From: Cytophagales bacterium
GTDB lineage: Bacteria; Bacteroidota; Bacteroidia; Cytophagales; Thermoflexibacteraceae
Direction: 5' to 3'
Length of the DNA stretch: 64,000 nt
Assembly (NCBI GenBank): GCA_013299115.1
Contig: JAAFKA010000002.1
Coordinates: 62,001-126,000 of the forward strand
Shown here: positions 11,200-32,235 of the stretch, piece by piece
Layout: each line of letters starts with the position of its first letter
Position numbering within the stretch: the first letter of the stretch is position 1
Notes under the pieces: generated by a model
Seen by the model: only the letters and a program-made list of their open reading frames with translations
Told to the model about the DNA's origin: nothing
Databases searched by the model: none
Made by a program: the position numbers and the translations under genes

Positions 11200-11898
11200 T
11201 TATAACGGACGGTAACGGTGTAAAACTTGTATAGTCCCTACCATTCGTTCCTTTATTAATTCTTTGGTTTTTAGGTCATTGTAGTAAATATTGCAATCTA
11301 TCTCAAAAGTTACGTACATTCCCTGCCCATAAACCTCTTCTAACTTTACTACTTGCCATTTACTTCCTGCTTGACTACCTATAAAGGTGCTGTACCCAAA
11401 GGATTCAGTAGGTTTGTTTAAATCCACCGAAGAGATAAAACACTCATACCCTGTTGTATTTTCTGTACTACGGATTGGATAGTTTCCTAACTTAAACCAA
11501 CTGAGCAAGGCAGGATAGTTATAAGTTTTATCAAACCGCAAAGTTTGGTCTTCTGGGTCCACAATAGGCATAGGTGGGGCTTTGATAGCAAAAACAATAT
11601 CTAACAAAGCACCATTTTCTCTATCTGATTTCTGAAACGAATTATACAAAATTACTTGAGTGGGTATACCTGCTTTTGCTTCCCATCCTCTATCAGACAA
11701 ACCACCCCAACCATCTTTGTTTGTAGCTACATTAAATACACGATTACCTACTTTGATATTCATGGCTGAAACAGTTGGAGGTACAGGAAATGTTTCTACT
11801 ATCACAGACTTTGTTTCTGGTGTAGCAGGTTCTTTTGAACAGGCAATTAAAACACTACCCAACAAAATAATGTAAATGAAAATGAGATATTTTTTCAT
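11200..11898 (-). CDS. Lipoprotein of a tandem paralogous family, copy 2
   Basis: 232 residues with lipobox VLIAC (Cys20). It shares PTVSAMNIKVGNRVFNV, NKDGWGGLSDRGWEAKAGIPT, MPIVDPEDQTL, KTYNYPALL, and EEVYGQGMYVTFEIDCN with copies 1 and 3. It is the most diverged of the three; for example it has KVGNRVFNVATN where the others have IG.KDFNIE.N. A remnant of the Ig-like partner gene ends 13 bases upstream, so the order partner-then-lipoprotein is the same as in copy 3. Function is unknown. Confidence 0.8.
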   Translation of the reverse strand: MKKYLIFIYIILLGSVLIACSKEPATPETKSVIVETFPVPPTVSAMNIKVGNRVFNVATNKDGWGGLSDRGWEAKAGIPTQVILYNSFQKSDRENGALLDIVFAIKAPPMPIVDPEDQTLRFDKTYNYPALLSWFKLGNYPIRSTENTTGYECFISSVDLNKPTESFGYSTFIGSQAGSKWQVVKLEEVYGQGMYVTFEIDCNIYYNDLKTKELIKERMVGTIQVLHRYRPL

Positions 11899-11911
11899 GG
11901 TTATAAGAATA

Positions 11912-12217
11912 TTAAAAGTGAATGATTAAAACTGACGACAAGTTAGGAATAGCAGAACCACACTTAGGTACTACGCAAACTCTATTGTAACGGACTCCAT
12001 TAAAATTAAAGCCCATAGTATTACCAAAAGCATTAAAGGAAAAACTACCACCACCAGTTCCGTTAGTATTAGCGTATGAAATGATGTAATCAAATCCTAC
12101 TGTTAAGCCACCCACGCTAATATCATTGTTAATATTCCAATCTGAAATGGAGAGAGAAAACCTGCCTGTGCCACTACCGAAAAATTAAGGGTACGGTCTG
12201 CTGTGGTATTCACAAAA
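11912..12217 (-). pseudogene. Truncated, frameshifted remnant of the Ig-like partner gene
   Basis: On the minus strand from 12217, the frame reads VNTTADRTLNFSVV, matching VNTTADRTVNFFVV in the intact gene at 13002-13835. About 15 codons later, at a CTCTCTCC run, the reading must shift by one base to continue as SDWNINNDISVGGLTVGFDYIISY, which matches the MGGLVPGFDYIFY region, then VCVVPKCGSAIPN matching VCIQRKCSSQTPR. Everything before VNTT is missing: the homology stops at CACAAAACT, exactly where the terminator of copy 3 begins. It looks like a deletion joint followed by decay. Confidence 0.8.
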
Positions 12218-12250
12218 CTCCCTCCTACGCCCTTTCTACATAGGAGGGAG
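12218..12250 (-). terminator. Intrinsic terminator of the third lipoprotein gene
   Basis: The stem CTCCCTCCTA / TAGGAGGGAG is identical to that at 10315-10347, including the loop. On the minus strand it is followed by TTTTG. It starts 14 bases after the stop codon of the gene at 12265-12966. Confidence 0.85.
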
Positions 12251-12264
12251 TTTTTAAGCTACTA

Positions 12265-12966
12265 CTAATCAAAAGGTCTGTAACGATACAATAGTTGAAT
12301 AGTCCCTACCATTCTTTCTACCTTATTGCCAACAGCCGATTTTACTTTGCAATCTACAGAAAAAGTGGCATAGAAACCCTGCCCATAGACTTCATCTACC
12401 TTTACCAACTCCCATTTGCTTCCATCTTGGGTGGTAGTAGAAGTTTCATAGCTGTATGAATTTTGAGGCTGGTCGTAATCCATCGACTGCATCCACAAAT
12501 AAAAACCTTGTAGTTGCAGTTGGTCTTGTACTGTTACCTGAATAGGAAACTTGCCGGGTCTAAAAAACTTGAGCAAAGCAGGGTAGTTGTATGACTTTTC
12601 AAACTTCAAAGTTGGGTCTTCGGGGTCTATGATGGGCATATTAGGCGAATTAATCGCAAACATTACATCTTTTCGCTGACTTCCATCAGGTTGTTGGATC
12701 ATTTTGGTAAAGGTATTCGAATGTTGAATGACCGTAGGAATACCTCTTTCTGCTGCCCAACTGCTTGAGGCTCTTCCTCCCCAACCATCTTTGTTGCTTT
12801 CTATATTAAAATCCTTGTCCCCTATGCTAATATTCATGGCAGACACCGTAGGATTGACAGGATAGCTACGCACCACAGGCGTAACTATAGGGGCTGCTAT
12901 ATCTTGGGCGCAGCCACCCACTACAAGGGCAAGCCCTGCAAACAGACTTACAAAATATGACTTCAT
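12265..12966 (-). CDS. Lipoprotein of a tandem paralogous family, copy 3
   Basis: 233 residues starting at ATG 12966, chosen because it opens a lipoprotein signal with lipobox VVGGC (Cys19); an in-frame frame extends to 13014 without signal character. The shared blocks are NPTVSAMNISIGDKDFNIE, NKDGWGGRASSSW, MPIIDPEDPTLKFEKSYNYPALL, KWELVKVDEVYGQGFYATF and ERMVGTIQLLYRYRP. It is closer to copy 1 than to copy 2. It follows the Ig-like gene with a 35-base gap and shares its strand, so the two are probably one transcript. Confidence 0.8.
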   Translation of the reverse strand: MKSYFVSLFAGLALVVGGCAQDIAAPIVTPVVRSYPVNPTVSAMNISIGDKDFNIESNKDGWGGRASSSWAAERGIPTVIQHSNTFTKMIQQPDGSQRKDVMFAINSPNMPIIDPEDPTLKFEKSYNYPALLKFFRPGKFPIQVTVQDQLQLQGFYLWMQSMDYDQPQNSYSYETSTTTQDGSKWELVKVDEVYGQGFYATFSVDCKVKSAVGNKVERMVGTIQLLYRYRPFD

Positions 12967-13001
12967 GATGATTTTTAAAATTTTAGAGTTATGGAAAATA
13001 G

Positions 13002-13835
13002 TTATTGAGTGCAACGTGGAGTTTGCGAACTACATTTGCGTTGGATACAGACTTTTGGAAAGTCTGCTTGATTGATTTGGATAGATTGCCCAGTAGCAAC
13101 AGCTTCTATTTCAAAAGTAGTTGTTACACCAATGGTATTGGTTTTATAAAAAATATAATCAAACCCTGGCACCAGTCCACCCATATCGGCATATAAAGAG
13201 GGTTGATTATTTGGCTCTGGTCGCCACGCAATAAACGGCGCTATGTTAGCATCGCCAACCACAAAGAAATTCACAGTACGGTCTGCTGTGGTGTTCACAA
13301 AACTTTGCCCCGATGAAAACTGAACATTAACTTTCGTAGCATTAATGGTGCTGGAGTAGCCATAAGGTACGGTAATACTGTAAAAACCACTGTTATCTGT
13401 AGTAGCTGAGTAGCTTGCAAAGCCACCTAAGCCATTAAAATTAATGCTTACACCAAGTAAACCTCTGCCGCAGTTGTTAGTAACATAGCCTGAAATGGTA
13501 ACCGTTGTAGGCTGAATATTGATTGCCAGCGAAGCACAGCAACTTTGGAAAGCACTTGCACAAGAGCCAGTAACCGACATATTCACAATCCCATTGCTTA
13601 CGTTGGCATTCCAACGGACAGTAACATAGAGTTCGGTCTGAGCCAAAATAGTACCACCCGATACTCCCCAGTTTACACTGTATCTTTTTGGCACATCATC
13701 GCAAAAGTAATCTGAATAATAGGTTTCTACTTGGTTGCTTTGCACCTGCGTCGCCCCACTAATCTGAGGGGCTATTTGTGCCTGCACGCCTTGCATAGTT
13801 CCTAAGCCCAGCATAGAGAGTGTTAAGAAGAACAC
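13002..13835 (-). CDS. Secreted Ig-like / carboxypeptidase-regulatory-like protein, probably phase-variable
   Basis: The annotated part (277 residues from GTG 13835) has a hydrophobic signal core ending VQAQ, an Ig-like domain with Cys pairs (SYFCDD, GSCASAFQSCCASL), and a carboxypeptidase regulatory-like repeat (TVTISGYVTNNCGRGLLGVSI ... SGFYSITVPYG). The GTG start would give a signal peptide without positive charges. An upstream ATG at 13932 followed by MKQKLSIFRVSPFE, and the KRYSFWLR stretch before the hydrophobic core, look like the true N-terminus, but a (TG)11 tract puts that ATG out of frame and it stops at TAG 13840-13842. One more TG unit, or two fewer, would give one 310-residue frame. 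Confidence 0.75.
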   Translation of the reverse strand: MFFLTLSMLGLGTMQGVQAQIAPQISGATQVQSNQVETYYSDYFCDDVPKRYSVNWGVSGGTILAQTELYVTVRWNANVSNGIVNMSVTGSCASAFQSCCASLAINIQPTTVTISGYVTNNCGRGLLGVSINFNGLGGFASYSATTDNSGFYSITVPYGYSSTINATKVNVQFSSGQSFVNTTADRTVNFFVVGDANIAPFIAWRPEPNNQPSLYADMGGLVPGFDYIFYKTNTIGVTTTFEIEAVATGQSIQINQADFPKVCIQRKCSSQTPRCTQ

Positions 13836-13864
13836 AAACCTAAGCCAAAAGGAATACCTTTTGC

Positions 13865-13887
13865 TGTGTGTGTGTGTGTGTGTGTGT
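13865..13887. repeat. (TG)11 microsatellite in the 5' coding region
   Basis: Eleven uninterrupted TG units followed by T. On the coding (minus) strand this is an ACAC tract that would encode alternating Thr-His. It lies between the ATG at 13932 and the signal-peptide core of the gene ending at 13002. Such dinucleotide tracts slip during replication and are a known means of on/off switching of surface genes. It is the only long microsatellite I see in the window. Confidence 0.9.
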
Positions 13888-13994
13888 CGACTCGAAAGGA
13901 CTTACACGAAAAATACTCAATTTTTGTTTCATGAGTTCATGAAGGTTTAAAAGATGAATAAAAGAGAACTACTTATCTGTTTGATAAGAAGTAT

Positions 13995-14023
13995 TTATCA
14001 GACACTTTGAAAGTGTCTGATAA
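13995..14023. repeat. Palindrome TTATCAGACACTTT
   Basis: Perfect 14-base arms with a one-base centre. Related hairpins occur at 25864-25880 (GACACTT/AAGTGTC) and 63262-63290 (TTATCCGACACCTT, imperfect). It lies upstream of the phase-variable gene and could be a terminator or an element end. Confidence 0.7.
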
Positions 14024-14504
14024 GTTTTGTGCCAAAAGCAAAGAAAGGTCTTGCTGTTTGACGGCACAAAGGTAAGGAGTTTTGAAAGAGAAATGCAAAC
14101 AAAAAGTTAAAAATGTTTATAAAAAAAACAAATTTTAACATTTAGACCAGCAAATAACAAGAGGTAAAAATTTTAATTTTTTTTCGCAATTTTAACACTT
14201 TTTTTGCCAACTCAATATATTTAAAAAAGTATCAAAAAAGTACCTTCTTATAGCTAAAAACAAAGTTTTACGAAAAAGCTATATATTTAATTAAATACAA
14301 AAAATAAATTTTTCTAAAAAACTGTTGTTTTTGAAACTTTTCGAAGATTTTGGGGGCAAAAAATGATAAATTTGAAAAATTGATAAAAAACAATTTTTTA
14401 TTTATTGAAATTTCGTTTACAGGCAGTAAAATAATAGCAAAAGAGGTTAAAGTTTGTTAAACAAATAGAAACACACCATAAAAATTTTGTATTTTTGCAC
14501 AAAA
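14024..14504. other. Very AT-rich noncoding stretch
   Basis: About 480 bases with no open frame of note and many A and T runs, between two divergent genes. Apart from a promoter-like box at 14490-14498 I see no defined site. No DnaA-box cluster or replication gene is near. Confidence 0.6.
14490..14498 (+). promoter_or_regulatory. Likely -7 promoter element of the OmpA/PD40 gene
   Basis: TATTTTTGC matches TAnnTTTGC. No good TTTG lies 19-21 bases upstream. If used, it gives a leader of about 260 bases containing the repeat block at 14521-14706. Confidence 0.45.
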
Positions 14505-14520
14505 GAGTGAAACCTTACCA

Positions 14521-14706
14521 AAGAGTGAAACCTTGGCAATGGTCGATAGACCTTGCCAATGGTTGAACGGAGGCAATCGTCAGTAGCTCTTGCCAAAGAG
14601 TGAAACCTTGGCAATGGTCGATAGACCTTGCCAATGGTTGAACGGCGGCAACGAAACTATTGGCAGGGCAAAAAAGCGGAGTGCCGCCCAGCCACTGCCA
14701 AAGTTT
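14521..14706. repeat. Repeat family C, two direct copies plus a hairpin
   Basis: Two 55-base direct copies (14521-14575 and 14596-14650) share AAGAGTGAAACCTTGGCAAT, then GGTCGATAGACC, then TTGCCAATGGTTGAACGG. Each copy folds on itself through GGCAATGGTC / GACCTTGCC. A further hairpin, AAACTATTGGCAG ... CTGCCAAAGTTT, spans 14654-14706 and recurs at 36637-36677. A diverged copy of the unit lies at 41064-41178 on the other strand. Confidence 0.8.
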
Positions 14707-14759
14707 GAGTGAACACAAACAACAGCAGGAGATTAACAATTCAAAACTTACAATTATTT

Positions 14760-16844
14760 ATGCTACGCATTTTACTTATAGCTTGTTGGGTATTTTTACA
14801 AAGTTTCTTTGCCTTTGTTGCTGTTGCCCAAAGCAAAATTATTTTCAACGACACTTTTAATGACAACAGCCGTTATTGGCGAGTCGGCGGCGATGCCGTA
14901 GGCAGGTACGCCATACAAGAAGGCAGCTACCACATAGAACACAACCTACCCAACGGCTACCGTATTCAACAAAAACCTATTTACATTCACCCCGCAAAGG
15001 ATTTTAAAATTGAGTGTATCCTTTCTAAACAACAAGGGGACGACAGGCAAGGTTTTGGGCTGGTTTGGGGTATGAAAGACGACAGTTTTTTCAATGCTTT
15101 TGAAATTACAACCAACGGCAATTACATAGTCTATAGCATAGACAACAATCAAATGAAAACCATTACCAAATGGACACCTTGTTCGGCTTTACTTGGCTAT
15201 GGGCAAAACAATACCTTGACTTTGCAACAAGTCAAACAAACTTTGTTTCTCTATATCAACGGCAAGTTGCAAGTTTCGTTTCCCAGCCCTGTGTTTTATG
15301 GCAGTGGTTTAGGGTTTATTGTGCATGGTTTCAATTCGGTTGCCATAGACGAAATCAACATTTATCAAGACGATTTGGGTAGTATCAATTTAGCAAAAAA
15401 CCTGCAATTTGACGACAAAGGCAAAGAGAATTTGGGCAACAACATCAACAGCCGTTTAGACGAATTTGCGGTACGCATAGCCCCCGATGGCAACACCTTA
15501 TATTATGTCCGCAATGGCGACCCCGCAGATTTATTTGCAGCAGGGAGGCAAGATATTTGGTATGCCACCAAACAGCCCAATGGCGAGTGGGGAGCTGCCA
15601 AACCCATGACCGAATTTTTAAATGGACAAGCAAATGCCATTATCTCCGTCATGCCCGACAACAACAAACTGATGCTGTTTCGCAACGGCAAGTTGTTTTA
15701 TATCCAACGCACTGCCAATGGTTGGAGTGGCTTGCAACCTATTGTGATTCAGAATGATTACAACAGAGGCAACTTGTCCAGCCACTGTTTTGGGGCTGAC
15801 CAAAAAACCTTGATAACTTGTGTAGAAAGGGACGAAGGCGTAGGCGGAATGGACTTGTACGTTTCTTTTTTGCAAGACGATGGCACTTTTTCTGTTCCAA
15901 AAAATTTGGGGGCTACGCTAAACACCCCAACAGACGACTTTTCGCCTTTTTTGGCTGCCGATGGCACTACGCTGTATTATGCCACACAAGGCAAGGCGGG
16001 CTACGGCAACATAGACATTTTTGTAACTCGCCGCCTCGACGATACGTGGACGAATTGGACTGAACCCCAAAATATGGGGGCTATGATAAATTCGGAGGAC
16101 TGCGAAACCAGCTTTACTATTCCTGCATCAGGAGAGTATGCTTATTTTTCTACTGTCAAGGGCAGCATAGGAGCAAAAGACATTTTCAGGATTAAGCTAC
16201 CCAAAGAGGTGCAGCCCAATCCTGTGGCTATTATTTACGGCAAGGTGCTGAACAAAAAAGACAATTCGCCTTTGAGTGCTGCCATGACCTACCTCAACCA
16301 AACCGAAGACCAAATCATAGGCAGGGCAAATGCAGACCCCGCAGGTGGAGATTACAAAATAGTAGTACCTTTGGGCAAAAAATACAAAATTTCGGCTCAG
16401 CACGAAGGATTTATAGATGCGCAGGACAGCATAGACGTAAGCAACTTGACAACTTACAAAGAAATTCAGTTAGATTTGTACCTTACGCCCTTAGAGGCGG
16501 GGCAAATAGTGAAGTTGAATGGCGTATATTTTGTACAAGGCGAAGATATGTTGTTGCAAACTTCTTACCCTGAACTCAAAAAATTGGTGAAACTCTTGCG
16601 AGAAAACCCTACAATGGAAATTCGTTTGGAGGGACATACAGACAATCAGGGTAGTAGCTACCTCAATCAAATTCTTTCCGATAAAAGGGTGAAGGCTGTC
16701 AAAAAATACTTGGTGCAGCAAGGTATAGCCGACTCACGCATACGCACACAAGGTTTTGGCGACAAAAAACCCGTTGCCGACAACAATTCGGAGGAAAACC
16801 GCAAACGAAACCGAAGGGTAGAGTTTATGATAACGAAAAAATAA
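14760..16844 (+). CDS. OmpA-family outer-membrane protein with PD40 propeller repeats
   Basis: The 694-residue protein has a signal peptide ending FVAVAQ (about residue 25), an N-terminal concanavalin/LamG-like domain (about 30-205, GFGLVWGMKDDSFFNAF), WD40-like PD40 repeats (about 225-490, with motifs such as SPFLAADGTTLYYATQGK and ASGEYAYFSTVKG), a carboxypeptidase-regulatory-like segment (about 500-580) and a C-terminal OmpA peptidoglycan-binding domain (about 590-694, EIRLEGHTDNQGS and NRRVEFMI). It probably links the outer membrane to peptidoglycan; PD40-OmpA proteins in this phylum often serve surface structures such as gliding or type IX secretion, which is only a possibility here. ATG 14760 opens the signal peptide. 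Confidence 0.88.
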   Translation: MLRILLIACWVFLQSFFAFVAVAQSKIIFNDTFNDNSRYWRVGGDAVGRYAIQEGSYHIEHNLPNGYRIQQKPIYIHPAKDFKIECILSKQQGDDRQGFGLVWGMKDDSFFNAFEITTNGNYIVYSIDNNQMKTITKWTPCSALLGYGQNNTLTLQQVKQTLFLYINGKLQVSFPSPVFYGSGLGFIVHGFNSVAIDEINIYQDDLGSINLAKNLQFDDKGKENLGNNINSRLDEFAVRIAPDGNTLYYVRNGDPADLFAAGRQDIWYATKQPNGEWGAAKPMTEFLNGQANAIISVMPDNNKLMLFRNGKLFYIQRTANGWSGLQPIVIQNDYNRGNLSSHCFGADQKTLITCVERDEGVGGMDLYVSFLQDDGTFSVPKNLGATLNTPTDDFSPFLAADGTTLYYATQGKAGYGNIDIFVTRRLDDTWTNWTEPQNMGAMINSEDCETSFTIPASGEYAYFSTVKGSIGAKDIFRIKLPKEVQPNPVAIIYGKVLNKKDNSPLSAAMTYLNQTEDQIIGRANADPAGGDYKIVVPLGKKYKISAQHEGFIDAQDSIDVSNLTTYKEIQLDLYLTPLEAGQIVKLNGVYFVQGEDMLLQTSYPELKKLVKLLRENPTMEIRLEGHTDNQGSSYLNQILSDKRVKAVKKYLVQQGIADSRIRTQGFGDKKPVADNNSEENRKRNRRVEFMITKK

Positions 16845-19153: not shown

Positions 19154-22100
19154 ATGCGACCTATTTTATACTATACAGCCATTGGCTATGTCATTTTATT
19201 TTATTTTACCTTAGTTTTTGGGAGTCAAGCCCAAGAGTTAGGCAGACCTTTCGTGCAGTCTTACTATCCGAAACAATACCAAGCAGCTACCCAAAATTGG
19301 GATATTGTGCAAGATGATTTGGGTATGATGTACTTTGCCAATAACGAAGGGGTCATGCAATTCAACGGTGTAGACTGGACTGTTACGCCTGTTGCCAATA
19401 AATCTACGGTGCGAGCAGTGGACATAGACAACAACGGCATTGTCTATGCAGGTGCTATCAACGAATTTGGTTATCTCCGCCCCAGCACCACAGGAAAGTT
19501 AGAATATGTTTCCTTGTCTGTTCATGTGGCAGAAGAAGACAAAAAATTTGGTGATGTTTGGAAAACCATTGCCACACGCGAAGGAGTTTATTTTCAATCG
19601 GCTACTTATCTTTTTCGGTGGGCAAAGGGCAAAATAAAAGTGTGGAAACCCAAACGCCGTTACCAAAAAATAATGTACGTTTTAGACAGATTTTTTGTCA
19701 AAGAATTTGATAGTCCCCTGATGGAAATGGTCAATGACGAATTGGTTAATTTTAGAGATTTGGGTTTATTTGAAAAAGAGGGACTTGTCAATTTAGTACC
19801 TTATGAGGGCAGCAAAGTGCTTTGTTATAGTGCAAAGTCCTCTTTTCAAATCATAGACTTCAACCCCAAAGCAAGCAAAGAACAAGTAGTAAGCAAATTT
19901 CCAACCGAAATAGACAGTGCCTTAGTCAAACATGGTGCTTATGCTCTTGCCAAACAGCCCAACGGCAGTTTTGTAATGACTACACGCAAAGGCGGAAGTT
20001 TTATTATAGACAAAAACGGCAAACTCCTCCGCAAACTCCAAAAAGCCGAAGGAATGCACTCCGAGTCGCACTACATAAGCTATACAGACCACCAAAATAA
20101 TTTGTGGATTGGCACAAACAACGGCATCATTTATGTCGAGGTCAATGCACCTTTAACCGTTTTTACAGACAAGCAAGGTTTAGAAGGTACTGTTTATTGT
20201 ATCGCAAGAATAGATGGCACTTTGTATGCAGGCACCAGTTTGGGACTGTTTTATTTAGACAAAGCTACTAATAGTTTCAAACAAATAGAAGGATTGAGTT
20301 TTCAGGTTTGGGATATAAAACCAATGAAAATTGGTGATGAAACCAAAATAATATTGGCTGCTGCAGGGGTGTATGAACTCAAAAACAACAAACCAGTGCA
20401 AATTTTTCCCAATTCTTCCTTTGTGGTTTATCCCTCTTTGGTCAATCCACTAAGACTGTATTGCAGTGGCAGAGATTATATAGCTGCTTTGCTCTACAAA
20501 AATGGCAAATGGGAGGAGGAAGGGCGTATGAAAATGAAAGGGGACGACATTCGGTCTATTACAGAAGACAAAAACGAACAACTTTGGGCTTCGGTTAATC
20601 TGAATGGCGTGAGAAAATTTACCCTTAATGGCAGCAAATTTGATTCAACAGCCACCATAGTAAAATACGATACAGCCCAAAATATCACATTAAGAGAAAA
20701 TAAATTTTTTAAAATAGGTGGTGAAATGTTGGTTGCTACCGAAAAAGGTGTCAAGAGATACAGCCAAGAAGGAAATAATTTTGTGCCTTATACTAAGTTT
20801 GGTGCCCAATTTGGCGATGGTAGCTATACAGTATCCAATTTATTGGAAGACAACAAACGCAATGTATGGATTTTTGCCAACAAAGGCAAACAATACCTAT
20901 TAGGCGTAGCCGAATACCAAAACGATGGCAGCTACCAATGGAATCCTACACCTTATTATCGTATTCCTACAATGACCGAAGTTGTTTTTTGGGCAGACCC
21001 ACAAGAAGTCGTGTGGTTTGGTGGGTCGGAAGGGTTGTTTAGGTTTGATGGCAAAATCAAGAAAAAATATGACGACAAGCCGCGTGTTTTGGTAAGTCGG
21101 GTGTTTATTGGCGAGGATAGTGACTCTACGCTATTTGGTGGCGTGTTTTCAAAAGACTTCAAAAAGGCAGAGGGCGAAATGGTAAAAATTGTGAGTTTGA
21201 CCCAAACCAAAGAACAAGTACCCATTTTGTCATATACTTACAATTCTTTGGCTTTCTCCTACGCCATGCCCAGCTATGACGATGCCAAAGCCAACCAATA
21301 CAGCCACCAATTAGAAGGTTACGAGGAAATTTGGTCGCATTGGAGTACAGAAACCAAAAAAGAATATACCAATCTTTCAGAAGGTTCTTATATTTTTAAG
21401 GTAAAAGCACGCAATATTTACGGCATAGAAAGTGAAATTGCTACTTACAAATTCAACATTTTGCCACCTTGGTACAGGTCTGCGTGGGCATACATCAGCT
21501 ACGTAATTTTGGTAGCCTTAGCCGTTTATTTCTTTATTTGGTTCTCTACACGCAGATTGCAAAAGGAAAATGAAAAATTGGAAAGATTAGTAACCGAAAG
21601 AACAGCCCAAATAGCCCAAGCAACAGAGGAATTGGCAGCACAAGCCGAAAACTTAAAACAGGCAAATTCTTCTATTTCCTTGCAAAATAGTGAGATAAAT
21701 AAGCAAAAAGAGCAAGTAGAAAAAGCCTATACCAATGTGAGGGTATTGAGTGAAATTGGACAAAAAATTACTTCTACCTTAGATATTCAGCAAATTAGTA
21801 AGTTGGTTTACCAAAACGTAAACAGTCTTATGGACGCAACAGGTTTTGGTTTGGGGGTTTACAACGGAGAACGTAAAACCATAGACTTCAACGGCTTTGT
21901 AGAAAAAGGCGAAATCCTGCCCGACCACTACGACAGCATCAACGATGAAGGTTCTTTGGCAGTGCGTTGCCTAAAAACCAACGAAGAAATCATCATTAAC
22001 GACTACCGCCACGAATATGTACACTACATCAACCGCAAAGCAACAGCAGCCGTTGGCGATTTGCCCGCCTCTATTATCTACTTGCCTTTGCAGATAGAAG

Positions 22101-23035
22101 ACAGACCTGTAGGCGTGGTAACAGTACAGAGTTTCAAACTCAATGCCTATGACGACAACAATCTCACCATTTTGAGAACTTTGGCATCTTACATTGCCAT
22201 TGCTATTGACAATGCTCACTCTTACTACATTATAGAGGAAAAAAACAAACACATTACCGACAGTATTCGTTATGCTCGCACCATTCAGCAAGCCTCCTTG
22301 CCAGGTCGCAAACGAATGGCAGAGGCTTTGAAAGATTATTTTGTAATTTTCCGCCCAAAAGATATTGTTTCTGGTGATTTTTATTGGCTCAATCACATAG
22401 TAGAGGAAAACCCTGAAACAGGAGAAAAATTAGATGAGGTGTTTCTTGCCGTAGCCGACTGTACGGGGCATGGCGTACCCGGTGGCTTTATGTCTATGAT
22501 TGGCAATAACCTACTGAATGAAATTATCAAAATGCAACATATCTACGACCCTGCTCGTGTCTTAGAACTGCTCGACGAAGGGGTAATTTTGGCACTTCGC
22601 CAAAACGAAAAATCTAATGACGATGGCATGGATATTATGTTGTGTGCAATAGAATACAAAGGTGATGACGTAAAACTCATCATATCGGGTGCAAAAACAT
22701 CTATGTATTATGTGCGTGAGGGCGAAACAACCATTAACGACATCAGAGGAGATAACCGTTTGATTGGGGGAACAAGCCACAAAAGCAAGCCTTTCACAAA
22801 CAAAGTAGTGGAACTAAGGGCTGGCGACTTGCTCTACCTAAGCAGCGATGGCTACCCCGACCAAAATGCACCTGATGGACAAAAATTTGGCAAAGAAAGA
22901 TTTAGGGAGATGCTCATTCGCAATGCACACTTACCGATAAACGAACAGCGTATTTTGTTTGAGGAGGCACTAAGCCAACACCAACAAACTGCCCCACAAC
23001 GAGATGATATTACGGTGGTGGGAGTGAAATTGTAA
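19154..23035 (+). CDS. Two-component-type propeller sensor with GAF and SpoIIE phosphatase domains
   Basis: The 1293-residue protein has a signal peptide (1-27), a periplasmic beta-propeller of Reg_prop type (about 30-690, repeats such as NNLWIGTNNGIIYV and VVWFGGSEGLFRFDG), a Y_Y_Y domain (about 705-770, YSHQLEGYEEIWSHW), one membrane helix (about 777-797), a coiled coil, a GAF domain (about 870-1022) and a SpoIIE phosphatase (about 1035-1293; GDFYW, DCTGHGVPGGFMSMIG, SSDGYPD, DDITVVG). The extracellular half is that of hybrid two-component systems that sense glycans or other polymers, but the output is a serine phosphatase instead of a kinase. It is monocistronic or leads into the Rpn gene 42 bases downstream. 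Confidence 0.93.
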   Translation: MRPILYYTAIGYVILFYFTLVFGSQAQELGRPFVQSYYPKQYQAATQNWDIVQDDLGMMYFANNEGVMQFNGVDWTVTPVANKSTVRAVDIDNNGIVYAGAINEFGYLRPSTTGKLEYVSLSVHVAEEDKKFGDVWKTIATREGVYFQSATYLFRWAKGKIKVWKPKRRYQKIMYVLDRFFVKEFDSPLMEMVNDELVNFRDLGLFEKEGLVNLVPYEGSKVLCYSAKSSFQIIDFNPKASKEQVVSKFPTEIDSALVKHGAYALAKQPNGSFVMTTRKGGSFIIDKNGKLLRKLQKAEGMHSESHYISYTDHQNNLWIGTNNGIIYVEVNAPLTVFTDKQGLEGTVYCIARIDGTLYAGTSLGLFYLDKATNSFKQIEGLSFQVWDIKPMKIGDETKIILAAAGVYELKNNKPVQIFPNSSFVVYPSLVNPLRLYCSGRDYIAALLYKNGKWEEEGRMKMKGDDIRSITEDKNEQLWASVNLNGVRKFTLNGSKFDSTATIVKYDTAQNITLRENKFFKIGGEMLVATEKGVKRYSQEGNNFVPYTKFGAQFGDGSYTVSNLLEDNKRNVWIFANKGKQYLLGVAEYQNDGSYQWNPTPYYRIPTMTEVVFWADPQEVVWFGGSEGLFRFDGKIKKKYDDKPRVLVSRVFIGEDSDSTLFGGVFSKDFKKAEGEMVKIVSLTQTKEQVPILSYTYNSLAFSYAMPSYDDAKANQYSHQLEGYEEIWSHWSTETKKEYTNLSEGSYIFKVKARNIYGIESEIATYKFNILPPWYRSAWAYISYVILVALAVYFFIWFSTRRLQKENEKLERLVTERTAQIAQATEELAAQAENLKQANSSISLQNSEINKQKEQVEKAYTNVRVLSEIGQKITSTLDIQQISKLVYQNVNSLMDATGFGLGVYNGERKTIDFNGFVEKGEILPDHYDSINDEGSLAVRCLKTNEEIIINDYRHEYVHYINRKATAAVGDLPASIIYLPLQIEDRPVGVVTVQSFKLNAYDDNNLTILRTLASYIAIAIDNAHSYYIIEEKNKHITDSIRYARTIQQASLPGRKRMAEALKDYFVIFRPKDIVSGDFYWLNHIVEENPETGEKLDEVFLAVADCTGHGVPGGFMSMIGNNLLNEIIKMQHIYDPARVLELLDEGVILALRQNEKSNDDGMDIMLCAIEYKGDDVKLIISGAKTSMYYVREGETTINDIRGDNRLIGGTSHKSKPFTNKVVELRAGDLLYLSSDGYPDQNAPDGQKFGKERFREMLIRNAHLPINEQRILFEEALSQHQQTAPQRDDITVVGVKL

Positions 23036-25815: not shown

Positions 25816-25909
25816 AAAATAAATGAGCTAATAAAATGAGCATATAAGTGGATAAATTTATTGGACACTTCGAAAGTGTCTGATAATTGGCTTTCTTACT
25901 TATATGGCT

Positions 25910-25918
25910 GCAAAGATA
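25910..25918 (-). promoter_or_regulatory. Likely -7 promoter element of the DUF3098 gene
   Basis: The minus strand reads TATCTTTGC, a match to TAnnTTTGC, about 95 bases before the start codon. No TTTG lies at the usual distance upstream. Confidence 0.45.
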
Positions 25919-26043
25919 GGAGTTTATATGTGGCTGTAATTTTTTTTACAATTTTTTTTATAATTTTTTGCAAAAAAATGGGCAAAATGTTTAAAATTTA
26001 CTTTCTTGCACAGAGTTCTATTTTGTTACCAAAACCTACCACC

Positions 26044-26616
26044 ATGACACATTTAGCAGGTTGGTCTTTACACGATTATTACAAGAATATTAATAGAGCT
26101 AATACGTTGGTTTTTTATAAGGGGACTTTTGACGAAAAAATAATTGCCGAAATTAGCCAAAAAATCAAAAGACTACTCCATAATAATCCGTATTTAAGCA
26201 AAAAAGTCTTCTCTGTCTTTATAGAGTTGGCTCAAAATATCTCGTTTTATTCGGCAGAAAGAAATGTGATTAACAGAAAGGAAAGTTCAGGCGTGGGACT
26301 TATCATGTTGGAGGATTTTCCTCAACACTACACCCTCACAACGGCAAACCTCGTATCTACGAGGGATACTTTGCGGTTGGCTGCTAAATGCGAAACTATC
26401 AACTCTTTATCTCGTGAAGATTTGCGGGCTTTTAAACGCAGACTCCGCAACCAGCCTTCCTCACACAGAGATAGTGGAAATATAGGGCTGATACAGGTGG
26501 CATTATTAGGCACAGGGGAACTAAGAATAGACCTTACTAATATCAACGAAAACTTATCTTTCTTTACTTTAGCCCTCGACATCTCGAAGGAAGTACAGGA
26601 AGACGAAAATAATTAA
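26044..26616 (+). CDS. SiaB-family protein kinase (DUF6272)
   Basis: The 190-residue protein is an HATPase-like fold: IFIELAQN-type motif (SVFIELAQNISFYSAER, about residues 57-73) holds the Asn of the ATP-binding N-box, and the segment SSGVGLIML resembles the G box. In Pseudomonas SiaB phosphorylates the DUF1987 protein SiaC. The DUF1987 gene follows here after 52 bases, supporting the assignment. I chose ATG 26044 (MTHLAGWSLHDYY); the frame is open to 25861 but that part overlaps hairpin and low-complexity sequence. The SiaA phosphatase and SiaD cyclase are not adjacent, though four SpoIIE phosphatases lie in the window. Confidence 0.8.
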   Translation: MTHLAGWSLHDYYKNINRANTLVFYKGTFDEKIIAEISQKIKRLLHNNPYLSKKVFSVFIELAQNISFYSAERNVINRKESSGVGLIMLEDFPQHYTLTTANLVSTRDTLRLAAKCETINSLSREDLRAFKRRLRNQPSSHRDSGNIGLIQVALLGTGELRIDLTNINENLSFFTLALDISKEVQEDENN

Positions 26617-26668: not shown

Positions 26669-27052
26669 ATGGAAAATTTAGTCATTACAGGCAATAGCAA
26701 TATTTATCTTATTCCGCAAGTCAATTTTGATGCCTCCACAGGCGTATGCGAAATTGTAGGCGAATCTTATTTGGAAGAAACCAAAGACTTTTATGCAAAA
26801 TTGGTGAAATGGTTGCAAGATTATATGTTTCAAGTCAAAGGAGATATTACCCTCTCGGTCAAATTGACCTACTTTAACACCAGCACCTCGCGTTGTTTGC
26901 TCGATATTTTTCGTATGCTCAAAAGCTACCAACTCCAAAAACACAATGTAACAGTGAATTGGTATGTGCGAAAAGAGGAGGATTTTACAGTGGAGGAAGT
27001 AGAGGATTTTATTGCTAATTCGGGGCTAATGATTAATCAGGTGTTGTATTAA
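26669..27052 (+). CDS. SiaC-like phosphoprotein (DUF1987)
   Basis: The 127-residue protein has the DUF1987 layout: FDASTGVCEIVGESYLEET, then FYAKLVKWLQDYM, and the core KLTYFNTSTSRCLLDIFRML. In SiaC the phosphorylated Thr lies in the equivalent NTSTS stretch, here at about residues 71-75. The unphosphorylated form in Pseudomonas binds and activates the diguanylate cyclase SiaD. No GGDEF gene is visible here, so the partner must be elsewhere or different. It is cotranscribed with the SiaB-like kinase and ends before a strong terminator at 27102-27140. Confidence 0.9.
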   Translation: MENLVITGNSNIYLIPQVNFDASTGVCEIVGESYLEETKDFYAKLVKWLQDYMFQVKGDITLSVKLTYFNTSTSRCLLDIFRMLKSYQLQKHNVTVNWYVRKEEDFTVEEVEDFIANSGLMINQVLY

Positions 27053-27101
27053 ACTTTAGAACAGACTTTAGTCCGTTTTGTAAGGTTTGTTTGCGGGGTG
27101 C

Positions 27102-27140
27102 AAAAACCTCACAAGGTTTCTAAAACCTTGTGAGGTTTTT
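27102..27140. terminator. Intrinsic terminator after the SiaB/SiaC pair
   Basis: An 18-base perfect stem, AAAAACCTCACAAGGTTT / AAACCTTGTGAGGTTTTT, with a three-base loop, ends in GTTTTTG. Its right arm overlaps the -33 element of the next promoter. Confidence 0.85.
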
Positions 27141-27169
27141 GTTTTTGATTAGAATAAAATTTATTTTTG
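27138..27169 (+). promoter_or_regulatory. Consensus promoter of the HsdS-histidine kinase gene, possibly leaderless
   Basis: TTTG (27138-27141), 20 bases, then TATTTTTG (27162-27169): a full match to the Bacteroidota consensus. The -7 box is centred seven bases before the start point, so transcription would begin at or beside the ATG at 27173. Confidence 0.65.
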
Positions 27170-27172: not shown

Positions 27173-28477
27173 ATGGAAAAGACAATAAAAGAAATTCTTA
27201 AACATTCTATTAGGGGCAAAGCATACGCCAAAGATTTGGTTTACAGTAAATTGCCTGATGCCATTCCTTATGTGGGTGTGAGTGATTTATCGAAAAGAAC
27301 AGAAAATTTTAACTTAGATATTTCCAAAATAGACCGAAAAATAGCACCAGAGAAGGCACAAAAACTTGTCGACTTTTCGGCTATTTTAGTAAGTTTAATT
27401 GGTACAAATTTAAAACCCACTTATTTTAAATACGAAGGGCAGCCTATCATTACAAGTTCTGATATTATAGCCCTGCAATTTGAAGAACACATCAGCCCAG
27501 AGTTTATTATCATTCAGTTATATTCGAGGTATGTTGAAATCCAAACCCAAATGTTGGTAAGTGAAACCACCATACCTCGTATTCATACAGATGATTTTTT
27601 TAATATCAAACTTATTATTCCTTCGCTTGAAGAACAACAACGCCAAGTTGTAAAATTTTTGTTAGCTGAAAAAGAAAAAGCAAATATAGAAATTACAGAA
27701 GCTAAAGAGGAAATTAAAATTACAGAATATGAACTCATAGCAAGCGTGGCACATAGCTTTAAAAACAAGCTAAGCCCTATTGTGATGGAATATGCTATTC
27801 TGCTCGACCTTTTGCATGAAATAGCACAACAAAAAAAGCCCTTGAATTTTGAGGATTTGGTAAGACCTATTTTGGAGGGAGATACCCAAGATGACATAGA
27901 AACAATAGGTACATTGGCAAATAGAATAGACAGAAGTTTAAAAACATTGCCCAAAGTTTTTAATGATTTTAGAATATTGCAAAAAGAAATATTACAAAAA
28001 GAAATAGTTAATTTGAGCCAATACTTGAAAGCAGCAACCAAAAATTATGCTTCAAATTTGTACAAAATACAAATCATACCATCACCAAAAAAATTGCTTG
28101 TGAGTATAGACAAGGAGGCTTTTCAGAGTGTATTAGAAAATTTGATAGACAATGCTGTTACGCATGGATTTAAAGACAAAGCCTTACATTATGTGATTTG
28201 TTTTGATATTTCAGCACCAATTCATGTAACACCAGATGGCGAAAAATTTGCTAAAATGATTTATAAAGACAATGGTGTTGGTTTCATTGCAAACTATGGT
28301 TTGGACGACTATAAAACTTTTGGTAATAAATCTGTCTATTCCAAAGGTTCAGGCATTGGTGGTTTCATTGTCAATAAAATGATTGAACTGCACAAAGGCA
28401 GTGTACGTTTTTTAGCTATTTCGGAAGAAAATTCTTTTAGGACACAAATAGAAATTTTATTACCTTTGGAAGATTAA
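27173..28477 (+). CDS. Fusion of a type I restriction specificity (HsdS) domain to a histidine kinase
   Basis: The N-terminal 165 residues form one HsdS target-recognition half: IPYVGVSDLSK, AILVSLIGTNLKPTYF, ITSSDIIALQF, then the typical end TTIPRIHTDDFFNIKLIIPS followed by LEEQQRQV and a coiled coil. The C-terminal part is a histidine kinase: H-box ASVAHSFKNKLSPI (His194), N-box ENLIDNAVTHGF (about 327), DNGVGF (about 366) and GSGIGGFIVNKM (about 392). No membrane helix is present, so it is cytoplasmic. The response regulator gene follows after 10 bases. No HsdM or HsdR gene is nearby. A DNA- or protein-sensing kinase built on a restriction domain is inferred; its role is unknown. Confidence 0.85.
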   Translation: MEKTIKEILKHSIRGKAYAKDLVYSKLPDAIPYVGVSDLSKRTENFNLDISKIDRKIAPEKAQKLVDFSAILVSLIGTNLKPTYFKYEGQPIITSSDIIALQFEEHISPEFIIIQLYSRYVEIQTQMLVSETTIPRIHTDDFFNIKLIIPSLEEQQRQVVKFLLAEKEKANIEITEAKEEIKITEYELIASVAHSFKNKLSPIVMEYAILLDLLHEIAQQKKPLNFEDLVRPILEGDTQDDIETIGTLANRIDRSLKTLPKVFNDFRILQKEILQKEIVNLSQYLKAATKNYASNLYKIQIIPSPKKLLVSIDKEAFQSVLENLIDNAVTHGFKDKALHYVICFDISAPIHVTPDGEKFAKMIYKDNGVGFIANYGLDDYKTFGNKSVYSKGSGIGGFIVNKMIELHKGSVRFLAISEENSFRTQIEILLPLED

Positions 28478-28487
28478 CTTATTCTTT

Positions 28488-29438
28488 ATGCAAACTATTC
28501 ATATTCTCCAAGTTGAGGACAATGTAGCACACCGCAAGCAATTTAGAACTTTGGCTTGGCGTTTGGGCAACAAACAAAATTTAGAAGTTATTGTTACATC
28601 TTTTGACAATCTCAAAGAAGGCTATGCCGAATTAGAAAAAAATATAAGCAAATATAAAGCATTAGTTTTAGATGCAAAATGTATTATTGACAAAGGCGAA
28701 AATGAAAGTTTTGAGTTTTTGCCCAAAGCACTTAGAGAATTGACCGAAATTAATCGCAAAACAGGTCAAATTCACTTGCCTTTTGCCATTAATACAGGCT
28801 ATTATGGCTACAACGAAGTAAAAATTTTTATGAGAGAAATAGCCGAACAAGGCGGACAACTATTTGATAAGTCTGACGAAGAAAATATGCTTGCTTTTTT
28901 GTTTGCAGAAATAGCTAAGTTAGAAAACACAAAAATAGAGAAACAATACGCCAATGTTTTCGAACTATTTGAGTTAGGTTTTATGCCTCCAAATCCAACA
29001 GATTGCAGACAAAAACTATTGAAAATCCTCAAAAATATAGATAATCCTGCGGAAAACATAGCTATTTTGCAAGACGCAAGGGTAATACAAGATGAAATTT
29101 ATAAAATTTTACAGCAATCTAAAATTAACGGATTATCGAGGAGTTTTAGCTTTATGGAGAAAAATAAATTTTTATCAGGTAACGAGGATTTTGTAGATAG
29201 TAATGACAAAAGAAAAGGTAAACAGCCAACTACAACAGTTTACCAAACGCCAGCACTTTCCTATTTGGCTTCGAATGTTAATCAAATTTGCAGTGCTTTT
29301 GGCAATCACTCCACTACAAGACCAGAAAATGTAGAAGTAAAATATTGGGAAGTGCCAAGCAACTATGCTGTAAAAAGTGTGGTTTTTGCCCTATTGGAAC
29401 AACTCCTTTGGTTTAAAGAATTGATGAAAACTAACTAA
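28488..29438 (+). CDS. Response regulator-like protein, partner of the HsdS-histidine kinase
   Basis: The first 135 residues look like a receiver domain: acidic pair Glu10-Asp11 (ILQVEDN), likely phosphoacceptor Asp62 (LVLDAKC), and a Lys-containing QLFDKSDEE loop near the end that would correspond to the conserved Lys. The remaining 180 residues are mostly helical and match no DNA-binding or enzyme domain I recognise, so the output is unknown. A 20-residue stretch around NKFLSGNEDFVDSNDKRKGK is probably a disordered linker. It is read in the same transcript as the fusion kinase and ends at a hairpin. Confidence 0.7.
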   Translation: MQTIHILQVEDNVAHRKQFRTLAWRLGNKQNLEVIVTSFDNLKEGYAELEKNISKYKALVLDAKCIIDKGENESFEFLPKALRELTEINRKTGQIHLPFAINTGYYGYNEVKIFMREIAEQGGQLFDKSDEENMLAFLFAEIAKLENTKIEKQYANVFELFELGFMPPNPTDCRQKLLKILKNIDNPAENIAILQDARVIQDEIYKILQQSKINGLSRSFSFMEKNKFLSGNEDFVDSNDKRKGKQPTTTVYQTPALSYLASNVNQICSAFGNHSTTRPENVEVKYWEVPSNYAVKSVVFALLEQLLWFKELMKTN

Positions 29439-29455: not shown

Positions 29456-29474
29456 GTGTGGGCTTTGCCCACAC
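29456..29474. terminator. Hairpin after the response regulator gene
   Basis: GTGTGGGC / GCCCACAC with a TTT loop lies 18 bases past the stop. It has no long T run. It separates the kinase pair from the TPR-CHAT gene. Confidence 0.6.
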
Positions 29475-29514: not shown

Positions 29515-32235
29515 TTGCCAAAACATTTATTCATTTATTGGGGGTGTTTTGCTTGGTGGCTACTCACCTTTCCCACCGCAACTTTTGCACAAGATTGGAA
29601 GTATTGCAACAAGCAAGCTGAAAAAAATTATGCAGCAGGCAAACTGCAACAGGCTATTTTTTGGGCTGAAAAAGCCACCAATGAAATAGAAAACAAATTT
29701 GGTTTGCAAAATCCCGATTATTCTTTTGTCCTCGATAATCTGGCGAAACTCTACGTAGAAACTGGGCAATACGAAAGAGCCGAACAACTTTACACCGAAA
29801 TCAGAAACACAAGGCTAGCGGTTTTGGGTAGCAACCACTTGGATTATGCCACCGCCTTAGACAACTTAGCCTTAGTCTATCAACTCATGGGTGCTTATCA
29901 CAAAGCTGCACCTATCTTGCTCATTTCCAAACAGATAAGAGAACAAAATGCAAGCACCTTGCACCCCGACTATGCTCACACCTTAGACAATTTGGCTTTT
30001 CTCTACGAACAATTAGGCTTGTACGAAAAAGCAGAAAATTTTTATTGGCAGGCAAAGGAAATCAAGGCAAAAGTTTTGGGCAAAAAAAGTACCGACTATG
30101 CCAATACGCTGTATAGTTTTGCTGAATTGTACGCCTTGCAAGCCCAATATGACAAAGCCGAAGCCTTGTATGACGAGTGTTTGAAAATTACGCAAAAAAT
30201 AGAGGGCAAGCAAAGTATGGGTTATGCCACCGCCTTAGACGGATTGGCAGCTTTGTATGTAAAGCAAAAAAAATATGCAGAGGCAAAGCCCTTGTTGGCA
30301 GCAAGTATGCAAATTACCGAGCAGCTTTACGGCACAGCACACCCCGATTATGCCCTGAATATCAACACCTTAGCCTACATAAACAGCAAGGAAAAAGACT
30401 ACGAACAAGCCGAAAAATTGTATAGGCAAAGTTTGGCAATTTTAGAAAAAGCTTTGGGCAAACACCACATTTATTACACCAATACCTTGTTTAGTTTGGC
30501 GGTTTTTCAGGAGGAGCAGGGCAACTGGGCAGCAGCCGAAAGTTATTACCGATTGGTATTAGACAAAAAACAAGAGGAAATTACCAAATTGTTTCCTGTA
30601 TTGAGTGAGGCAGAAAAATTGAGTTTCTACAAAAATATCAAACAGTTTTTCAATACTTTTCATAGTTTTGCTCTGAAATATAGCAAAGAAAAACCAACTA
30701 TTTTGTGCAAAGTATTTGAAAATCAATTACTTATCAAAGGTTTGTTGTTCGACAATTCGCAACGCCAACGCCATGCCATTTTGCAAAGCAAAGATAGTAC
30801 ACTCACCAATTTGTATTTTAGGTTGAAAGAGCAAAAAGAAAAATTGGCAGCTATTTTTTATACAGATACCAAAACTTTTAGGGCTACGGAGCAGCAAAAA
30901 CTTATTCAAACCAAAGAAACAGTAGAGCAGGAAGTAGAAACGACAGAAAAATTATTGGCAGGAGAGTTGCAAAAAAAAGGATTGCAAAGTATTGATAACC
31001 AGAATTTTATAGATTGGAAAAGTTACCAATCACAGTTGCAAGTCAATGAAGTGTTGGTCGAATTGGTAAGAGTACCGAATGAGCAAAATCCTGAAAGTCT
31101 TGCTTACCTTGCCCTCATCATGACGCCTGAAACCAAAGAAGCCCCGATTGCCTTGCTTTTGTCTAACGGCAACACCCTCGAAGGCAGTGCGTTGAAATTT
31201 TACCAATATTCTCTGCTCGACCAACGGACAGACCACGAGTCTTATCAGCATTATTGGTTGCCTATCCGCAAAGTGATTGAGGTGTTTACCCAAAACCAAC
31301 GCCAGCCCAAAGTTTATATTTGTCCTGATGGGGTCTATCACCAAATCAATTTGCATAGTTTGTTGAATGTAGAAACAGGCAATTATTTGATAGATGAACA
31401 GCCCTTGACTTTGCTCACCAACAGCAAAGATTTATTGCAACAGGCTGATAAACAGGCAAATAAATTGACAAATAACTTGACAAATAATTTGGCTATGACC
31501 ATAGACAATGCCCTTTTGTTGGGTTGCCCTGCTTATGATTTGCCCGCAGTTGTTACAGAATTGCAAGCCATAGATACGTTGCTACGGAGCAACAAAAAAA
31601 TTTCTACTGTCTTATTGAATGAAAAAGCAACCAAACAAGTGTTGAAAAATTTGCAACCAACTTCCTTGCTACACATAGCCACGCATGGTTTTTTTGGCAA
31701 ATTGCCTACTTTTGGCGGGGAGTCGTTGGCGGCTACCACCACCGAAGTTGCCAATAGCACTCACCCTTTGCTGCATTGTGGCTTGATTTTGGGCAAACCC
31801 AACCCCAATGAAACAGTAAACGAAAATACAGAGAAAAATAAGGACAAAAACGAAGAAAAAAACGGAAACGAAACTGCAAAAGCCAATGAAACAGCCGACC
31901 AGATACTCACTGCTTACGAAGCTATGAATTTGCCTTTGACCCAAACGCAGTTGGTCGTGTTGTCGGCTTGCGAAACAGGCAGAGGCGAAATTCACGAGGG
32001 CGAAGGAATTTATGGTTTGCAACGTGCTTTTTTGGTGGCAGGTACGCATACATTGCTCATGAGCCTATGGAAAGTAAACGACAGAGCCACCCAATTGTTG
32101 ATGACTCATTTTTACGAAAATTTGCTTACTCACCAACTTTCGCCTGCCCTTGCTTTGCAAGATGCCCAGAAAAAATTGCGTGAAAAATATGCTCACCCTT
32201 ATTTTTGGGCTGCGTTTGTGGTGGTGAATAGGTAA
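29515..32235 (+). CDS. TPR-CHAT protease (caspase-like)
   Basis: The 906-residue protein has a signal peptide ending TATFAQ, about eight tetratricopeptide repeats (about 30-350; the repeated unit is ...YA.TLDNLA.LY...G.Y.KAE.LY), a helical region and a CHAT peptidase domain (about 600-905). The catalytic His is in LLHIATHGFF (about 724) and the Cys in LVVLSACETGRGE (about 819). A low-complexity Asn/Glu/Lys insert (about 765-795) lies between them. The start is a TTG at 29515: there is no ATG or GTG between it and the upstream in-frame stop at 29479-29481. A secreted CHAT protease of unknown target is inferred. Confidence 0.88.
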   Translation: MPKHLFIYWGCFAWWLLTFPTATFAQDWKYCNKQAEKNYAAGKLQQAIFWAEKATNEIENKFGLQNPDYSFVLDNLAKLYVETGQYERAEQLYTEIRNTRLAVLGSNHLDYATALDNLALVYQLMGAYHKAAPILLISKQIREQNASTLHPDYAHTLDNLAFLYEQLGLYEKAENFYWQAKEIKAKVLGKKSTDYANTLYSFAELYALQAQYDKAEALYDECLKITQKIEGKQSMGYATALDGLAALYVKQKKYAEAKPLLAASMQITEQLYGTAHPDYALNINTLAYINSKEKDYEQAEKLYRQSLAILEKALGKHHIYYTNTLFSLAVFQEEQGNWAAAESYYRLVLDKKQEEITKLFPVLSEAEKLSFYKNIKQFFNTFHSFALKYSKEKPTILCKVFENQLLIKGLLFDNSQRQRHAILQSKDSTLTNLYFRLKEQKEKLAAIFYTDTKTFRATEQQKLIQTKETVEQEVETTEKLLAGELQKKGLQSIDNQNFIDWKSYQSQLQVNEVLVELVRVPNEQNPESLAYLALIMTPETKEAPIALLLSNGNTLEGSALKFYQYSLLDQRTDHESYQHYWLPIRKVIEVFTQNQRQPKVYICPDGVYHQINLHSLLNVETGNYLIDEQPLTLLTNSKDLLQQADKQANKLTNNLTNNLAMTIDNALLLGCPAYDLPAVVTELQAIDTLLRSNKKISTVLLNEKATKQVLKNLQPTSLLHIATHGFFGKLPTFGGESLAATTTEVANSTHPLLHCGLILGKPNPNETVNENTEKNKDKNEEKNGNETAKANETADQILTAYEAMNLPLTQTQLVVLSACETGRGEIHEGEGIYGLQRAFLVAGTHTLLMSLWKVNDRATQLLMTHFYENLLTHQLSPALALQDAQKKLREKYAHPYFWAAFVVVNR

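Follow-up and report, generated by a model that had tools for sequence, protein, structure and literature searches.

A restriction-type target-recognition domain fused to a histidine kinase: a candidate DNA-sensing two-component system with relatives at defence loci

Introduction

Two-component signalling already has a place in what has been described of bacterial defence. In Detocs, a two-component relay reportedly takes part in phage defence, with a different sensor from the one treated here, a nucleosidase effector and an extra receiver. The subject of this paper is a gene pair in a stretch of 64,000 nucleotides from a Cytophagales bacterium (GenBank assembly GCA_013299115.1, contig JAAFKA010000002.1, positions 62,001 to 126,000 of the forward strand). 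The whole of this stretch is called the window. The first gene, P0001, joins a target-recognition domain (TRD) of the type found in HsdS, the specificity subunit of type I restriction, to a histidine kinase. The second, P0002, encodes a response regulator.

Several published systems come close. Going by the available part of an eLife paper from 2024 (PMC11090510), two-component genes are frequent in operons of methyltransferase-associated NxD McrB GTPases, a matter which that paper defers to a later one. The available parts of three other sources describe BREX loci in which Schlafen RNases come with a minimal histidine kinase (PMC12839542), Cam2, a membrane protein that serves type III CRISPR as a REC effector and has no partner kinase (PMC11229360), and control of CRISPR-Cas expression by a histidine kinase and a regulator (PMC8523701). 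The accessible text of PMC7159879 has nothing on a TRD-kinase fusion. A full-text literature search, which is thin on subscription journals, found no description of a TRD-kinase or HsdM-TRD-kinase fusion among the top-ranked papers.

A preliminary description of the pair, made from the sequence, had held that such a kinase has no established counterpart. This did not stand, as 43 other loci have been found. We lean towards the view that P0001 and P0002 work together as a two-component system in the cytoplasm and belong to a defence-associated family. The sensor of the pair would descend from a type I modification unit, and its TRD would sense DNA or else a conserved partner.

The kinase and its regulator

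Over residues 2-176, P0001 matches Methylase_S in Pfam (E 4.4e-9, 37.2 bits, cut-off 22), and its first 166 residues do so on their own with E 1.3e-10. The 'Specificity_I' models of PADLOC match residues 14-183, down to E 1.4e-12. The C-terminal part, residues 313-433, is matched by HATPase_c from Pfam (E 3.4e-8). A family profile made from P0001 and 10 relatives was run against PDB sequences. It matches solved HsdS chains (5ybb, 3okg and 1yf2, E 9.4e-13 to 4e-12), and also solved kinases (4jas, 5uht, 3dge and 2c2a, best E 5.6e-13). The kinase match starts at profile position 164-168, so it includes both the DHp and the ATPase regions.

His194, N327, G368, G394 and G396 are identical in all 33 family kinases, window included. 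The type I TRD half, the soluble kinase behind it and the His194, N and G boxes of the preliminary description are thus all borne out. The DHp region is recognised through the family profile; P0001 alone matches no HisKA family in Pfam at E<=1. Unlike a free HsdS subunit, which has two TRDs, P0001 has one, fused to the kinase. From Q155 to H194 it runs for 39 residues that are free of proline and glycine.

P0002 follows after a gap of 10 bases. Its receiver residues D11, D62 and K128 are identical in 32 of 32 family regulators, the window copy among them. Each of the 32 has Thr or Ser at position 103, so that the pocket is complete throughout, in keeping with a response regulator. P0002 has no Pfam match at E<=1. 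Among seven homologues scanned, two have a weak match to Response_reg that is below the cut-off (E 0.0014 and 0.0065).

The output domain was said to be of no recognised kind, and in the window copy its region indeed has no Pfam match. Across 28 aligned copies R198 and H274 are invariant, and Y293 and W308 nearly so. Compared with PDB sequences, P0002 yields two weak matches, both to ribosomal protein (E 0.012 and 0.013). One of the 28 output regions matches AlbA_2/Schlafen (E 2.3e-15; by our reading this is the one at locus L067), and one matches the S1/CSD domain of TOTE systems (E 2.8e-5). Given these two matches, in one region each, a nucleic-acid-related output is a reasonable guess. There is no nucleosidase effector domain in P0002 or among the families of the 28 output regions. 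A HEPN/DUF4145 output, at first suspected by eye, was dropped: hhalign against the N-terminal region of HsdR, which we take to be DUF4145-type, gave probabilities of 0.1-0.2, and decoys gave 0.1-0.6.

A family of 44 loci

The family comprises 44 distinct loci including the window, numbered here as L032 and so on, and neighbourhoods were tabulated for 42 of them. A search with P0001 among 194 genomes of the order returned the window protein and long proteins of 805-934 residues, whose C-terminal half matches P0001. Regulator profiles found 13 of 395 genomes in a sample of the phylum, 17 of 390 in one of the order and 14 of 395 in one of the class, with the window genome counted each time. The regulator searches lie mainly within the phylum of the window, with exceptions that include a named collection, plasmids and viral contigs. 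The named collection has 11 loci, six of them already in the set. One of its new loci comes from a Pyrinomonadaceae metagenome-assembled genome (MAG), with the kinase cut off on its 6 kb contig. Among plasmids there is a single Myroides odoratimimus plasmid, in three records. Phage records hold no match to P0001. A single-protein search of viral contigs, sensitive to close relatives only, gave no relative of P0002.

The survey shows that the pair recurs. Kinase and regulator genes are adjacent in 42 of the 44 loci (41 of the 42 tabulated, plus L070). Included in these are a frame-broken kinase (L133) and one that runs off its contig (L135). In the two remaining loci, L069 and L136, the contig ends ahead of the kinase. 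The set contains two couples of near copies, L058/L078 and L130/L131. In L034 (8515-10909) the regulator and hsdM are each split into separate frames, beside an HsdM-TRD-kinase.

The TRD of the relatives is supported by alignment with P0001, in L032, L057 and L060 also by PADLOC specificity models, and in L129, L102 and L060 by Pfam Methylase_S above the cut-off. Four loci, L036, L037, L038 and L070, have the same kinase-regulator core without a TRD, and judging by these the sensor part is swappable. The N-terminus is NTPase-like in L036, which has sub-threshold AAA matches, and by eye in L038 and L070.

A methylase-like part with a mostly degenerate motif and a more constant TRD

The preliminary description took the TRD half to be the whole sensor. 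For the family this is incomplete: 24 of 29 long relatives have, N-terminal to the TRD, a match with E<1e-3 to an HsdM profile built from 17 genuine HsdM of family loci. In the other five (L033, L035, L040, L065 and L103) the profile stays above E 1e-3. Pfam finds N6_Mtase in eight of 13 long relatives scanned, with a best E of 4.2e-69. Two of these are among the first six scanned (L034, E 1.9e-52, and L039, 1.5e-16, with none in L032, L033, L035 and L040), and the rest come from seven further fusions, six of which match.

Motif IV, [NDS]PP[FYW], is intact in 17 of 17 genuine HsdM and in three of the 21 fusions that can be aligned there (L058, L099 and L102; eight of the 29 cannot). Another four of the 21 have PPF behind Thr or His (L061, L077, L101 and L105). 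By pattern, NPPF or SPPF is also present in L130, L131 and L134, which are outside the 21. With PPF or one of these motifs retained, methylase activity may persist in some relatives. In 113 of 136 pairs, two fused HsdM-like parts have a lower score with each other than do the genuine HsdM from those loci, in scores that are uncorrected for length (medians 431 vs 552 residues).

The TRD behaves differently. The 18 loci with both a fused TRD and a genuine HsdS allow a comparison in which the best 150-residue tile of each genuine HsdS is used, a choice that favours the genuine side. Fused TRDs nevertheless outscore these tiles in 119 of 153 pairs (medians 148 vs 93). L036-L038 and L065 are left out of the TRD counts. 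As the fused TRDs are the more alike, they seem not to be tuned to the target of their own locus. A match between the fused TRD and the HsdS of the same locus was considered and rejected. The median score is 51 for the same locus (24 pairs) and 43 for different loci, with highest values of 81 and 119, so same-locus scores are just slightly higher, with significance not assessed.

Taken together, loss of the catalytic motif is the trend in the methylase part, as far as the alignments go, while the TRD stays rather constant. From this we infer a sensor, not an additional specificity subunit, and one that would read a single common feature.

Neighbourhoods and defence loci

The stretch fetched around each pair usually extends 9-10 kb in both directions (12 kb on the plasmid), and it is shorter where a contig ends. 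HsdM, HsdS, HsdR, WYL and RtcR labels come from phmmer with queries from family loci, and some of the genes were checked by Pfam or PADLOC. Genes labelled hsdM, hsdS or hsdR lie near the pair in 25 of the 44 loci. These are 19 and six in two sets, and two label queries from L098 were absent from the labelling of the first. L132 and L062 are weaker cases of restriction-modification (RM), with labels for hsdM and hsdR only. A rough chance level can be had from one 5.5 Mb genome with 7 other Methylase_S places, which would give about 1 of 43 for stretches of 19 kb.

The absence of restriction genes, as claimed for the pair, therefore holds for the window and fails for the family. In the window no open reading frame (ORF) is labelled HsdM, HsdS or HsdR by phmmer, and a profile search finds neither a second Methylase_S nor an N6_Mtase match. 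Elsewhere in the genome both families have further places, all of them unlinked to the pair.

In 18 of the 42 tabulated loci hsdM is directly 3' of the regulator on the same strand, and in L073 and L104 one gene intervenes. Of the 42 loci, 20 include a WYL-labelled gene in their stretch (checked with Pfam in L039, and annotated on the plasmid). Six loci have a gene labelled as an RtcR-like sigma-54 activator; all three that were scanned with Pfam have the sigma-54 domain, and two of the three touch RtcR.

The preliminary description had thought a defence link possible. It is plausible, given that some relatives are found within or close to loci for type I RM, BREX, type III CRISPR and McrBC. 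The Myroides plasmid has, in this order, WYL, kinase fusion, regulator, methyltransferase, subunit S, two genes and subunit R. In L102 (G708, 7181-15680) the BREX genes brxA (E 2.6e-52), brxB (4.6e-66) and brxC (0) come right behind the pair. Upstream of it are an RtcR-like activator and a helicase, and the HsdM-like part there keeps NPPF. In L065 (G258, 604-12184) the pair is inside a type III-A CRISPR operon with cas10 (E 8e-108), a Csx1/CARF-HEPN gene and cas6. It stands between the RAMP genes and the Csx1-like gene, and the kinase is without a recognisable HsdM part. L067 (G471, 298-6686) has an HsdM-like kinase, then a protein in which an AlbA_2/Schlafen-like region replaces the usual output behind the receiver, and then McrB-like and McrC genes (AAA_5 E 1.5e-16, McrBC E 8.5e-58). 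In L035 a GmrSD_N gene is beside the pair.

History of the window copy

With 434 residues, the window kinase is the smallest TRD-bearing form found, and the only complete one without the N-terminal half; the others have 715 to 939 residues. Aligned with its relatives, P0001 starts at a domain boundary. Its sister is L032, from a Bernardetia MAG, with a regulator that is 51% identical to P0002 and a clade support of 100/98. The L032 kinase has 829 residues, but its HsdM part is barely recognisable (HsdM profile E 0.00087, no Pfam N6_Mtase). The likeliest history, as judged from these comparisons, is that an HsdM-HsdS-kinase fusion was the ancestor, and that the N-terminal half decayed and was then lost in the window lineage.

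The window TRD is nearer than the TRD of L032 to eight of eight outgroup TRDs, some of which are close kin of each other. It follows that constraint on it continued. We read the window copy as what would be a working, reduced form.

A regulator tree of 40 sequences leaves out L067, L034 (where the regulator is broken), L069 and L070. It requires eight switches in RM linkage, of which well-supported branches account for at least seven, so the pair both enters and leaves RM loci.

Explanations

Half-HsdS proteins act as dimers, and histidine kinases are dimers as well. The sensor would have arisen when an HsdM-like domain and half of an HsdS were placed before a histidine kinase, and the kinase dimer would then pair two TRDs, like a dimer of half-HsdS subunits. 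Once a fixed DNA feature is bound, a signal would travel along the HsdS helix to that of the DHp domain. There His194 would be autophosphorylated and hand its phosphate to Asp62, after which the output domain would act as regulator or effector of a defence response. Having neither the N-terminal half nor adjacent restriction genes, the window pair would be a stand-alone switch driven by its TRD, acting on a remote target or directly via the output domain.

A number of observations weigh against this DNA-sensing account. In 30 of the 33 kinases Asn takes the place of the G1-box Asp, which remains in those of the window, L032 and L035. Asn in this place is odd for active kinases, and many of the relatives may thus have weak or altered kinase activity. 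The linker from Q155 to H194 is 39 residues long in nine of 29 kinases, 41 in 12 and of another length in eight. These lengths do not point to a single heptad (coiled-coil) register, and the idea of a fixed heptad linker between TRD and DHp is not supported by them. Methylase_S exceeds the Pfam cut-off in three of 13 long relatives scanned (L129, L102 and L060). Compared with full-length genuine HsdS, which are about three times longer, the fused TRDs do not stand out (median 126 in 406 pairs, vs 131 in 153 pairs). Lastly, 17 of the 42 tabulated loci are without an RM label, the sister L032 among them, with their other neighbours partly scanned.

The TRD might also be a dock for a protein. It would bind a conserved partner, the HsdM/HsdR complex or some other, and the kinase would report the state of that complex. 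This overlaps with DNA sensing, and we consider it rather doubtful. A fused TRD that does not clearly follow the variable TRDs of neighbouring HsdS, and is conserved in the manner of an interface, is what a dock would look like, and HsdM- and HsdS-labelled genes share the stretch in many relatives. Yet the TRD is conserved in the window, which like several relatives has no RM label alongside, and the candidate partners elsewhere in its genome are the unlinked ones mentioned above. The lack of RM genes next to the pair, and its being the sole complete TRD-bearing kinase without the N-terminal half, could also mark a relic with a blind sensor and drifting genes. That is very unlikely: both frames are intact, the protein starts at a domain boundary, the TRD is not accelerated, and the catalytic residues are all kept, including the G1 Asp that is missing in 30 of 33.

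It is also unlikely, if less so, that the pair is a two-component system of the ordinary regulatory kind, which has borrowed a DNA-binding domain and plays no part in defence in the window lineage. The scanned neighbours in the window form no defence island and L032 has no RM label, but the family overall is often in defence loci. The DNA-sensing account of P0001 and P0002 has a wider version, which we put forward tentatively. The family would be a portable immune two-component module, in which a dead or altered methylase unit and a kinase read one fixed feature of invader (or damaged or modified) DNA. It would switch on its host system, be it type I RM, BREX, McrBC or type III CRISPR, through a dedicated regulator whose output is nucleic-acid-related, and the window form would be a reduced one that acts alone.

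If the DNA-sensing account is true, a kinase sensor made from the DNA-reading parts of a restriction enzyme would give a handle on how restriction systems sense attack or regulate themselves. The presence of the pair in several unrelated defence systems suggests a little-noticed alarm or control switch of bacterial immunity. Current annotation can hide such a pair: on the Myroides plasmid the kinase fusion is annotated as 'N-6 DNA methylase' and the regulator as 'hypothetical protein'. The window copy is the easiest to test, as it is the smallest TRD-bearing form.

Layout and surroundings of the pair

The features of the pair are listed in Table 1.

Table 1. Features of the P0001-P0002 pair, in positions of the window.
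Feature	Position	Strand	Basis
P0001, TRD-histidine kinase, 434 aa	27173..28477	+	ATG at 27173, stop codon ends 28477
HsdS-type target-recognition domain, residues 1-166, sole TRD	27173..27670	+	Methylase_S, PADLOC Specificity_I
Linker, HsdS conserved region (P150, Q155) to DHp His	27620..27751	+	predicted helix, from sequence
His194 codon, phospho-acceptor candidate (VAHSFKNKLSP)	27752..27754	+	family-wide conservation
HATPase_c, residues 313-433 (N323/N327, D366/G368, G394/G396/G397)	28109..28471	+	Pfam, alignment
P0002, receiver and output domain, 316 aa	28488..29438	+	ORF, conserved pocket
Receiver domain (D11, D62, T103, K128), end approximate	28488..28877	+	conserved pocket
P0002 output domain	28890..29435	+	conserved residues; no Pfam match in window copy
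Terminator-like hairpin, 20-pair stem, between SiaC-like and kinase genes	27100..27142	+	hairpin scan
Terminator-like hairpin, 8-pair stem, 3' of regulator gene	29456..29474	+	hairpin scan

The hairpin scan finds 8 terminator-like sites in the region, vs a mean of 3.0 in shuffled sequence. The scanned neighbours in the window are Sia-type signalling genes, TPR-CHAT, a ROK kinase and similar genes. Upstream of the pair are a SpoIIE-type phosphatase with Y_Y_Y and GAF domains (19154-23035), a SiaB-family kinase (25861-26616) and a SiaC-like protein (26669-27052), which are parts of a Sia-type switch. Another protein with a sub-threshold DUF6272 match is at 51397-51975. A functional link between the pair and the SiaB and SiaC genes is doubtful, because a strong terminator-like hairpin stands between them, and these genes recur at none of 21 compared family loci. 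Immediately 3' of the pair is a TPR-CHAT protein (29515-32235). A link to it was likewise discarded; none of the 21 loci repeats it, and its sole relative in that comparison is in L042, outside the family.

Comparison with known systems

Type I HsdS and HsdM are the obvious reference. What is shared is the TRD, by profile, and N6_Mtase in those long relatives where Pfam finds it. The window differs in that a single TRD is fused to a kinase, the N-terminal half is absent and no hsdM or hsdR is adjacent. The fusions of the relatives differ from HsdM in that motif IV is mostly lost, whereas every genuine HsdM keeps it. With Detocs the two-component relay is shared, and the nucleosidase effector reported for it has no counterpart among the domains matched here.

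For the NxD McrBC operons of PMC11090510, L067 may be such a case. The available part of that paper names no HsdM-TRD-kinase fusion, nor such a pair in type I RM, BREX or CRISPR loci. With the Schlafen-kinase proteins, as far as they are set out in the accessible text of PMC12839542, a kinase at defence loci is shared, and one family regulator carries an AlbA_2/Schlafen domain; those proteins are built differently and have no TRD or HsdM-like part. Cam2, going by the available part of PMC11229360, shares a receiver in type III CRISPR loci, and the family described here pairs its own receiver with a kinase.

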